Source: a virus. From it: a stretch of DNA of 45,321 bases. The stretch lies in IMG/VR virus record IMGVR_UViG_3300009499_000297, positions 1 to 45,321 of that record; one strand, written 5' to 3'. The position numbers and the translations under genes are program-made. How positions within the stretch are numbered: the first letter of the stretch is position 1; every line of letters starts with the position of its first letter. Positions 29,772 through 31,974 of the stretch are shown one piece after another. Under the pieces are notes generated by a model, which was given only the letters and a program-made list of their open reading frames with translations, was not told the DNA's origin and ran no database searches.

Positions 29772-30233
29772 TCAGGCGGGCGGCTCGGGCGGCTCGGCTG
29801 GGCTGTCGTCGGCGCCGGGGCAGGATGCCGGGCCTACGTCTGTGGCACCGTCACTCTCCGCCGTCCCTGGGTGACTCTCAGAGACTGCGCCACTGTCGAT
29901 TTCCAGCCTCTCGATGGCGTCGGCGAGGACTTTGACCCGTCGCAGTAGGCGACCACCAGTCCCACGCCATGTGACCTCGTGTAGCTGGCCGGTGACGATG
30001 ATGGGCGTGCCGCGGCGCAGGTGTCGTCCGATGAACTCGGCCGTAGGTCCCATGCCGGTGACTTGGACGTAGCTGTCTCGGTGGCATGGCTTATTCCCCT
30101 CGAAGCGTCGCGTAGTCGTGCCGAGTTGGAAATCGCAGTATGCCATGCCGGTGTCCGAGTACTTGACGGATGGGTCGTGCGTGCATCGGCCGGCGACGAT
30201 GACGGAGTTGATGTGGGGTACGGTGACGCTCAT
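29772..30233 (-). CDS. ssb: Single-stranded DNA-binding protein
   Basis: A 153-residue OB-fold protein that coats single-stranded DNA. The N-terminal domain shows the SSB pattern INSVIVAGRCTHDPSVKY, MAYCDFQLGTT, DSYVQVTGMGPTAEFIGRHLRRGTPIIVTGQLHEVTW and KVLADAIERLE. The C-terminal tail (about 105-153) is acidic and Pro-rich, ending EPPEPPA instead of the DDDIPF-like tip used to bind host partners. The start at 30233 has AGGAGA 4 nt upstream. It is the last gene of the early operon, just after the initiator gene. Confidence 0.88.
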   Translation of the reverse strand: MSVTVPHINSVIVAGRCTHDPSVKYSDTGMAYCDFQLGTTTRRFEGNKPCHRDSYVQVTGMGPTAEFIGRHLRRGTPIIVTGQLHEVTWRGTGGRLLRRVKVLADAIERLEIDSGAVSESHPGTAESDGATDVGPASCPGADDSPAEPPEPPA

Positions 30234-30259
30234 GGGTTCTCCTACTCCGGCTTCGGGTG

Positions 30260-31408
30260 TTAGTCGGGGAAGTCGGGCCATTTGAGGTTGTGCCGTTTGT
30301 AGATGTCCCTGGCTTTCTCGCCGAGGTACCCTCCAGGGTCACGCAGTGCGCCGAGTCCTTTTGCGGCTCGGATGGCCGGTGACTGGCAGTCCTCGGCGAT
30401 ATGGACCCAGCCAGCCATTTCGCCGATAGGGTCTTGGTCGACGTCAAGCTGTCCGAGCTCGAGTAGGACCTTGTCCCACCAGGGTCTCCATCGGGGCTCG
30501 CGGGTCAGAGACTGGATTCTCTCGGCGAGTGGAGTAGCGGCGGCCATAGCGGCGGCGAGTCTTCTGAGGACTTCTCCGGCTCGTTCGGGGTCGTGTGCCG
30601 CGGGGTCGGGGTCGGGGTCGGGGTCCTCGGGTGTGTGCGTCGCGGTGGGCGTGCCCTGCATGAATGCGAGCGTAGCCGGGTCGAGGTCGGGATGTTCCGA
30701 GTCCGGTCCGGTTCCGGTTCCGGTCCGGTCGGGTTCTCGATATTGAACCGCCAAGTCTGTATTCGTCGGGTCCGGTCCGGGTGCGGGCGCGGGAGGTGTA
30801 GTGACGGGCGTTTGAGGCGGGTGGTCCCTCGCGCGCGCGCGCTCCGGATCCGGACTTGGCTTATTGAGATCGAGCTCGAGATGGAGCTCGAGATCGCGCG
30901 CGCGATTCGCGAAGACCTTGGTAAAGGCTTTCGGTAAGGCTTTGGCAAAGGCTTCCCCTAAGCCTTCGACTAAGGCTTTAACCCGTTGGTAGTGCTTGCG
31001 TTTGAGCTCACAGTCCGGTAGTGTCTGGTCTATCTTGGTCCAGCTTCGGACGACGTTTGGGCTCCCTGGGGGGTTATGGATGATGAACTTCGGGGCCACA
31101 ATAAGACTGGCTTCTTCGTCCACTTCGAGTAAGCCTTTATCAAAGCCTTCCCGAAAGGCTTCCTCTGGAACGCCCAGCTCCCGCGCAAGACCTACGATGG
31201 TCGCGCGCATAGCACCTAGCGAGGTCTGATGTGGATGAGTCAGGACGAATAAGAAGCTGAGTTTTCCTAGGTGAGACAGCTCCCGGAATATCTCATCGCT
31301 CCACACTTGGACGCTGATGCGCCGGTATATCACCTGCGAAGGCCGCGACGCTGGGCTGGCACCGGGCAGGTTCGGCTGCTGCTTATGGTACTGCTGGCTT
31401 CGTTTCAT
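30260..31408 (-). CDS. Replication-initiator-like protein (winged-helix) carrying iterons
   Basis: A 382-residue protein. The N-terminal region (about 25-150, YRRISVQVWSDEIFRELSHLGKLSFLFVLTHPH then MRATIVGLARELG) is the winged-helix type found in phage replication-initiation and replisome-organiser proteins. Residues 150-175 are built of four-residue repeats (KAL/KAF) whose DNA is a set of 12-bp repeats. The middle (about 180-280) is Pro/Asp/Thr-rich and disordered; the C-terminal 100 residues are helical (LRRLAAAMAAATPL, WWDKVLLELGQLD), resembling a helicase-loading region. AAGGAG lies 5 nt before ATG 31408. Next to SSB, it likely starts replication at its own gene. Confidence 0.7.
   Translation of the reverse strand: MKRSQQYHKQQPNLPGASPASRPSQVIYRRISVQVWSDEIFRELSHLGKLSFLFVLTHPHQTSLGAMRATIVGLARELGVPEEAFREGFDKGLLEVDEEASLIVAPKFIIHNPPGSPNVVRSWTKIDQTLPDCELKRKHYQRVKALVEGLGEAFAKALPKAFTKVFANRARDLELHLELDLNKPSPDPERARARDHPPQTPVTTPPAPAPGPDPTNTDLAVQYREPDRTGTGTGPDSEHPDLDPATLAFMQGTPTATHTPEDPDPDPDPAAHDPERAGEVLRRLAAAMAAATPLAERIQSLTREPRWRPWWDKVLLELGQLDVDQDPIGEMAGWVHIAEDCQSPAIRAAKGLGALRDPGGYLGEKARDIYKRHNLKWPDFPD
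30602..30623 (+). other. G-quadruplex motif inside the initiator gene
   Basis: Four GGGG runs separated by TC lie on the + strand, a canonical four-tetrad G-quadruplex pattern. On the coding strand they encode an Asp-Pro repeat. They lie about 300 bp from the iterons. Confidence 0.6.
30923..30979 (+). repeat. Iteron cluster A, putative replication origin
   Basis: Five copies of an AAGGCTT core start at 30923, 30935, 30947, 30959 and 30971, exactly 12 bp apart. Four read TAAGGCTTT or AAAGGCTTT/C on the + strand, and the one at 30959 is inverted (TAAGCCTT). They lie inside the initiator gene, as lambda iterons do in gene O. Confidence 0.65.
31130..31162 (+). repeat. Iteron cluster B, putative replication origin
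   Basis: Three more copies start at 31130 (TAAGCCTTT), 31142 (AAAGCCTTC) and 31154 (AAAGGCTTC), again 12 bp apart and in mixed orientation. They lie 150 bp from cluster A inside the same gene. Confidence 0.6.
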
Positions 31409-31531: not shown

Positions 31532-31974
31532 GGGCGTACCGCATCTTGCAGGGCTGCTACCTCTGCCGGAGTCACCGCTACGTGGTTCCTGTCCGCCTCG
31601 TCCCGCCAATGCGCCGCCCACCATGAGATCGAGCCCACGCAGCACCCCACCCACACTAGACGCCACGGTAGTACCAGGCGCACTTCAAAGCCGCCCACAA
31701 CTCCGATCTTCTCGCCGTAGCCGGAGCCGTAGCCGTAGCCGTCGCCGTCGCCGTCGCCGTAGCCGTAGCCGGAGCCGGAGCCGGAGCCGGAGCCGTAGCC
31801 GGAGCCGGAGCCGGAGCCGGAGCCGTCGCCGTAGCCGGAGCCGTAGCCGTAGCCGTAGCCGTCGCCGTAGCCGTCGCCGTCGCCGTAGCCGGAGCCGGAG
31901 CCGTCGCCGTAGCCGGAGCCGTAGCCGTCGCCGTAGCCGTAGCCGTCGCCGTCGCCGTAGCCGTCATTTTTCAT
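31528..31974 (-). CDS. Gly/Tyr/Asp repeat protein with hydrophobic C-terminal segment
   Basis: A 148-residue protein. Residues about 4-88 consist of alternating GY, GD and GS dipeptides, encoded by a 42-unit hexanucleotide tract. Then follows KIGVVGGFEVRLVLPWRLVWVGCCVGSISWWAA, a hydrophobic Trp-rich stretch that could enter membrane, and a polar end (VTPAEVAALQDAV). The start at 31974 overlaps the end of the preceding gene and has GAGGAA upstream. Low-complexity Gly/Tyr regions can phase-separate or act as elastic linkers; no function is known here. Confidence 0.55.
   Translation of the reverse strand: MKNDGYGDGDGYGYGDGYGSGYGDGSGSGYGDGDGYGDGYGYGYGSGYGDGSGSGSGSGYGSGSGSGSGYGYGDGDGDGYGYGSGYGEKIGVVGGFEVRLVLPWRLVWVGCCVGSISWWAAHWRDEADRNHVAVTPAEVAALQDAVRP
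31714..31965 (-). repeat. Hexanucleotide microsatellite coding for Gly-Tyr/Asp/Ser
   Basis: The 252 bases are 42 units of GCCGTA, GCCGGA or GCCGTC on the + strand. The third and fourth bases are constant while the last two vary among TA, GA and TC, giving Gly plus Tyr, Ser or Asp. Unit changes by slippage keep the reading frame. Confidence 0.9.

Follow-up and report, generated by a model that had tools for sequence, protein, structure and literature searches.

Two 12-bp iteron arrays inside an initiator gene as the probable replication origin of a bacterial virus and its relatives

Short repeats inside a coding sequence may be kept for the peptide that they encode or for the DNA itself, and the putative replication initiator gene of one uncultured virus raises this question in a sharp form. 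The window, i.e., the whole stretch of 45,321 nucleotides analysed here (IMG/VR record IMGVR_UViG_3300009499_000297), is a virus record of 45.3 kb in which an integrase gene and a repressor-like gene are present. An initial annotation had described eight AAGGCTT cores in two clusters, five and three, with starts 12 bp apart and mixed orientation, lying in an initiator-like gene beside a single-strand DNA-binding protein (SSB) gene, and had proposed a lambda-O-like origin. The cores and their coordinates were confirmed by motif scan, and all eight lie in the open reading frame (ORF) next to SSB (PF00436). The features are as follows.

30260..31408, minus strand: initiator gene, 382 aa, with a predicted N-terminal winged-helix domain, a repeat-bearing linker, a low-complexity tract and a C-terminal part.
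29772..30281, minus strand: SSB gene, directly downstream of the initiator gene (PF00436, E 4e-14).
31131..31161, minus strand: iteron cluster 1, three AAGSCTT cores (31131-31137, 31143-31149, 31155-31161), encoding EAFREGFDKGL, residues 82-92.
30924..30978, minus strand: iteron cluster 2, five cores of 7 bp starting at 30924, 30936, 30948, 30960 and 30972, encoding KALVEGLGEAFAKALPKAF.
30912..30919, minus strand: degenerate sixth unit on the 12-bp lattice of cluster 2, coding strand AAGGTCTT; AAGRSTATGCC in the logo of relatives.

The peptide encoded by cluster 2 falls partly at the end of the DNA-binding domain and partly in the linker. The cores read AAGGCTT or AAGCCTT, their starts are exactly 12 bp apart within each cluster, the last start of one cluster is 159 bp from the first start of the other, and all eight share one codon frame. 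AAGSCTT occurs 14 times in the whole window (dinucleotide shuffles: mean 2.8, maximum 11). Resampling of synonymous codons in the initiator gene according to the phage's own usage gave 0-5 cores in 20,000 trials. Four of the eight cores use TTA, which makes up 2.1% of the Leu codons of the phage, and four use TTT, which makes up 15.6% of its Phe codons. The core DNA is thus not explained by the peptide repeat, since resampling yields at most five cores and the codon choice runs to TTA and TTT.

Relatives were located in viral contigs and bacterial genomes by the peptide between the clusters alone (HNxPESPNV alignment), which avoids selection on the iterons. Direct search of the viral contigs with the window protein found no relatives; alignment of the inter-cluster segment succeeded. 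The protein scan of viral contigs covers the best 80 matches, nearest to one member, and the collection scans may omit records very similar to the window. Relatives in bacterial genomes come, by record titles, from Proteobacteria, Desulfovibrio, Spirochaetes, Nitrospirota, Planctomycetes and others, and contigs of metagenome-assembled genomes (MAGs) among them may be misbinned. One MAG contig binned as an archaeon (Thermoplasmata, JAHFTW010000006.1) has two copies of one initiator gene about 57 kb apart, which may represent a duplicated prophage, an assembly artefact or misbinning.

Arrays of AAGSCTT with 12-bp period are found in 118 of the 132 distinct homologues in this peptide-selected set. 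Cores follow the inter-cluster peptide in 127 of these genes and precede it in 111, and 95 have a core pair on the 12-bp lattice in both clusters. Within the gene core density is 4.9/kb, as against 0.19/kb outside, and neighbouring cores are separated by 12 bp (321 gaps) or 24 bp (47), with few other values. The consensus unit is about AAGSCTTYSNSR, nearly a full 12-bp palindrome. Pattern searches of viral contigs point the same way. AAGSCTT(N5) in three copies occurs in at least 120 stretches, and 87 among the matches listed encode the initiator family; those inspected among the rest are fragments or have four-residue repeats in ORFs unrelated to the family. The control palindrome GAASTTC, of the same composition, gave 37 stretches, none of them in the family.

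The cores are retained in homologues only about 30% identical in protein sequence. In the zone of cluster 1, 251 of 281 [EKQ][AG][FL] tripeptides (89%) are written with the exact core, as against 25 of 431 (6%) in other ORFs. Cluster 1 is nearly always in codon frame 1 (EAFxxAF), and in cluster 2 the identical DNA is read in two frames, with 229 cores in frame 0 (KPSxKPS) and 163 in frame 1. The check proposed in the initial annotation, i.e., whether DNA is kept while protein drifts, has therefore come out in favour of an origin: the cores persist at about 30% identity, against codon bias and across frames. The homologues share ancestry, so that P values overstate their independence, and the case rests on the frame changes and the codon choice. 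Some homologues have degenerate cores only (Citrobacter phage Chris1, Actinobacillus pPE4, E. coli plasmid p727A3-47K). In one Sutterella homologue the ORF ends prematurely; beyond the stop codon, in non-coding DNA, come a degenerate array (AAGTCTT) and a similar box, and then a gene for 266 aa.

A second class of sites occurs in divergent members of the family. Inspection by eye of four genes that have the same tract downstream and lack AAGSCTT showed other cores spaced roughly 12 bp apart. A scan for AACSGTT in three copies gave 81 stretches. Divergent homologues are encoded at 45 of 80 loci, and the two-cluster layout recurs in most of them. AAGSCTT alone is present in 118 genes (the unbiased set), AACSGTT alone in 44, and both in none. 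The AACSGTT cores occupy all three codon frames (50, 70 and 80 in frames 0, 1 and 2). On a protein tree built without the columns of cluster 1, with long branches and few columns, site class changes twice, as against about 32 times in shuffles. Site class thus tracks protein clades, which fits the expectation if the protein reads the site. Repeated switching between the AAG and AAC classes is unsupported, as two changes suffice and a single clade is not rejected by the tree. Klebsiella phage ST13-OXA48phi12.4 (gene 2010-2897) has AAGGGTT/AACSGTT cores in two clusters, several of them 11 bp apart, and a CAGGAR tract; it possibly represents a further site class.

In most relatives the lattice terminates, according to the logo, in a box, AAGRSTATGCCTAATC, followed by (CAGGAR)n. 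In the window these elements are degenerate at best, at the positions below.

30903..30911, minus strand: probable remnant of the AATC box, coding strand CGCGAATCG, assigned by its position and by an AATC that agrees with the logo of relatives; weak here.
30862..30906, minus strand: site of the (CAGGAR)n tract of relatives, here occupied by 12-bp GAGATCGAGCTC repeats with flanking CG runs; hairpin-capable (z -2.1).

At least six consecutive NAR trinucleotides are present in 150 of 182 family genes, and at the tract position of the window phage such a tract is absent. The tract is usually translated as EQEQEQ. In ten genes it is one base out of frame and gives TGTG or VAVA, and there 89 of 89 Thr, Gly, Ala and Val codons end in A, compared with 145 of 1028 (14%) elsewhere in the same genes. 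For the Asn of the box, 108 of 110 genes use AAT, vs 674 of 1898 elsewhere, where AAC is preferred. All 76 matches of box plus tract (CCTAATCAGGARCAGGARCAG) in viral contigs fall within family genes. GC content of the relatives' CAGGAR tract is only mildly lower. Successive CAGs lie 6 bp apart in 134 genes and 7 bp apart in 8, which makes a purely trinucleotide reading of the tract insecure. Six loci (L089, L097, L121, L236, L078, and L309) have tracts of 5- or 7-bp period (CAGGAAG, CAGGGAG, GAATCAG) after cluster 2 in place of CAGGAR, so that successive repeats are read in different coding frames. Escherichia phages PhiR5_2 and Fraca and Acinetobacter phage YMC/09/02/B1251 have the (CAGGAR)n/EQEQ tract without AAG or AAC arrays; the tract may accordingly be a module common to several initiator types. 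For the arrays, and in relatives for the box and tract as well, the constraint acts on the DNA; all of these are family-specific and follow the clades of the initiator.

The encoded protein matches phrog_25711 (E 7e-25), with function not known in that library, and phrog_1701 (DnaD-like helicase loader, E 1e-5). Searches of the Pfam and NCBIfam profile libraries found no entry for the family, and a PDB sequence search found no relative. The initial annotation had supposed a winged-helix initiator, and an AlphaFold2 model of the N-terminal domain predicts a winged helix (mean pLDDT 90). Fold search with this domain gave a strong match to a phage 'replisome organizer' protein; the best PDB matches were N-terminal domains of plasmid initiators, weak at E 0.13-0.19, including 4pql, 4pta, and 5kbj, which we take to be staphylococcal RepA. 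A full-length model gave meaningless matches; the N-terminal domain alone did better, and still weakly against the PDB. In the predicted fold, cluster 1 encodes the helix immediately before the beta hairpin (wing). This is the usual place of a recognition helix, and cluster 1 may thus encode the recognition helix of the initiator.

C-terminal parts vary within the family, with DnaA_N in 3 of 53 and DnaT in 2 of 53. The initiator at L111:1975-3138 has a match to the DnaA N-terminal domain (PF11638, E 2e-12), which seems to lie in the C-terminal part of the protein. The DnaA N-terminal domain contacts DnaB. DnaB helicase is the next gene in eight of ten relatives scanned, these ten having been chosen from 20 for a clear adjoining ORF, and in a ninth its place is taken by a Toprim protein that matches DnaB_C weakly. 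In Citrobacter phage Chris1 the annotation calls the homologue replication protein O, with P as its neighbour, and a more distant relative in E. coli phage PhiR5_2 is annotated as O, beside DnaC.

We consider it probable, at roughly 0.87, that the phage's own initiator binds the two 12-bp arrays and that these form the core of a replication origin inside the gene of that initiator. Its N-terminal winged-helix domain would bind the near-palindromic AAGSCTT cores, in units close to the consensus, in both clusters; cluster 1 would sit in the coding sequence of that same domain and cluster 2 mostly in that of the linker. The bound initiator would build a nucleoprotein complex across about 240 bp, strands would open downstream of cluster 2, in relatives at the AATC box and then the purine-rich (CAGGAR)n tract, and the variable C-terminal part would recruit the replicative helicase or a helicase loader. 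Binding by the initiator, strand opening at the tract and replication start at the arrays are steps that we infer from sequence.

The initial annotation had also pointed to a G-quadruplex motif.

30602..30631, plus strand: G4-like motif, the coding strand giving Asp-Pro repeats; incidental.

The motif is present and is not part of the origin, as it is unconserved (7 of 129 relatives vs 9 of 460 control windows). GC skew in the window shifts locally near 28-31 kb, which is not decisive and was not used for the origin call. At 31719-31965, about 245 bp of mixed 6-bp repeat (GCCGTA/GCCGTC/GCCGGA) begin about 310 bp upstream of the initiator start codon, and the minus-strand ORF there consists of Gly-Tyr/Asp/Ser repeats.

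Among the alternatives, the arrays may bind the initiator or another phage protein mainly for regulation, i.e., autorepression, copy-number handcuffing, partition or incompatibility, and not for strand opening. Plasmid iterons often double as control sites, two separated clusters favour looping, and constraint at the DNA level is compatible with any binding site; however, the sites lie within the gene and not at a promoter, and the conserved box and repeat tract, together with an initiator gene that often precedes DnaB, are origin-like, which makes mainly regulatory sites improbable. Still less probable is a folded mRNA element that controls translation of the initiator. Within a single transcript, copies of AAGGCTT can pair with copies of AAGCCTT, but the spacing is exactly 12 bp, the invariant cores are without covarying partners, cluster 1 in relatives is mostly in a single orientation (central base C 227, G 29), and the Sutterella array is untranslated. 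Selection for an amphipathic peptide repeat (EAFxKAF), with the DNA repeat secondary and perhaps due to repeat expansion, has precedent in the 12-base repeats that encode four-residue repeats of unrelated proteins (33 among the at least 120 pattern loci), but is rejected by the frame changes (the same DNA as KPS, EAF; NGF, ERF, ETV) and by the codon tests, with exact cores in the great majority of cluster 1 tripeptides and TTA used against codon bias.

The preferred reading of the arrays as an origin has partial counterparts in known systems. It is best read as an origin that would work, by analogy, like those of lambda O or pSK41 Rep; membership in either family is not supported, and the testable features mostly fail. 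As in ori-lambda, the iterons are central in the initiator gene and adjoin a distinct strand-opening tract (PMC7466680), and the initiator adjoins a helicase-loading function. Lambda has four iterons (six in Stx phages) in one group and an AT-rich tract, whereas the present sites are 7-bp near-palindromes on a 12-bp lattice in two clusters, one of them inside the coding sequence of the DNA-binding domain, and the AT-rich tract is replaced by CAGGAR in relatives and by GAGATCGAGCTC repeats in the window. A tblastn search of 50,697 phage records with the window protein (E 1e-3) found only Citrobacter Chris1 and Actinobacillus pPE4, both of the initiator family, and no lambda. The description 'lambda-O-like' holds as an analogy only; no relation was detected, and site, spacing and two-cluster layout differ.

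Reps of pSK41 type (RepA_N) have a winged-helix N-terminal domain, boxes in the part of the rep gene that encodes the linker, and a C-terminal part that contacts the replication machinery (PMC5703833). The predicted winged helix, the in-gene sites encoding a linker and the weak fold match resemble this arrangement. pSK41 rep, however, has four boxes in one central group where two clusters are present here, and the Pfam RepA_N profile does not match the window initiator. In bacterial oriC the basal unwinding region contains DnaA-trios with consensus 3'-GAT-5' (PMC10201434). The likeness lies in double-strand sites followed by NAR trinucleotides on one strand in most relatives. Unlike DnaA-trios, the main unit of relatives is CAGGAR with 6-bp period, and the 7-bp period of a few genes breaks strict 3-nt phase; moreover, the initiator is not DnaA and the window is without the tract. 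A strict DnaA-trio reading was downgraded because of the 7-bp period in some relatives and the missing tract in the window. The homologues PHROG 25711, PHROG 1701 and phage 'replisome organizer' proteins come from libraries that state no origin, iterons or mechanism. Phage iterons of the AAGGCTT type were not found described in the open-access literature, where absence is not proof.

A broader proposal is tentative and, in our judgement, rather unlikely. It would place these origins in a widespread phage superfamily in which the initiator's recognition helix is written in the sites that it binds, so that altering a site alters its reader too. Such a superfamily would have at least two exclusive site classes, AAGSCTT and AACSGTT, and a conserved (CAGGAR)n tract for loading on single-stranded DNA, which would be convergent with the DnaA-trio design of bacterial chromosomes.

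Many bacterial viruses appear to carry a replication origin inside the initiator gene, and the type appears widespread and largely undescribed. The arrays offer a route from sequence alone to the origins of uncultured phages in their hundreds, as well as of prophages across several bacterial phyla, and they name a role for a protein family missing from Pfam and NCBIfam. Because sites are kept where the encoded protein changes, this origin type is testable. Natural pairs of initiator and site with two exclusive specificities may be used to study the recognition and opening of an origin by a winged-helix initiator, and a binding site that overlaps the coding sequence of the DNA-binding domain would be a clean case of one stretch of DNA under two simultaneous constraints.
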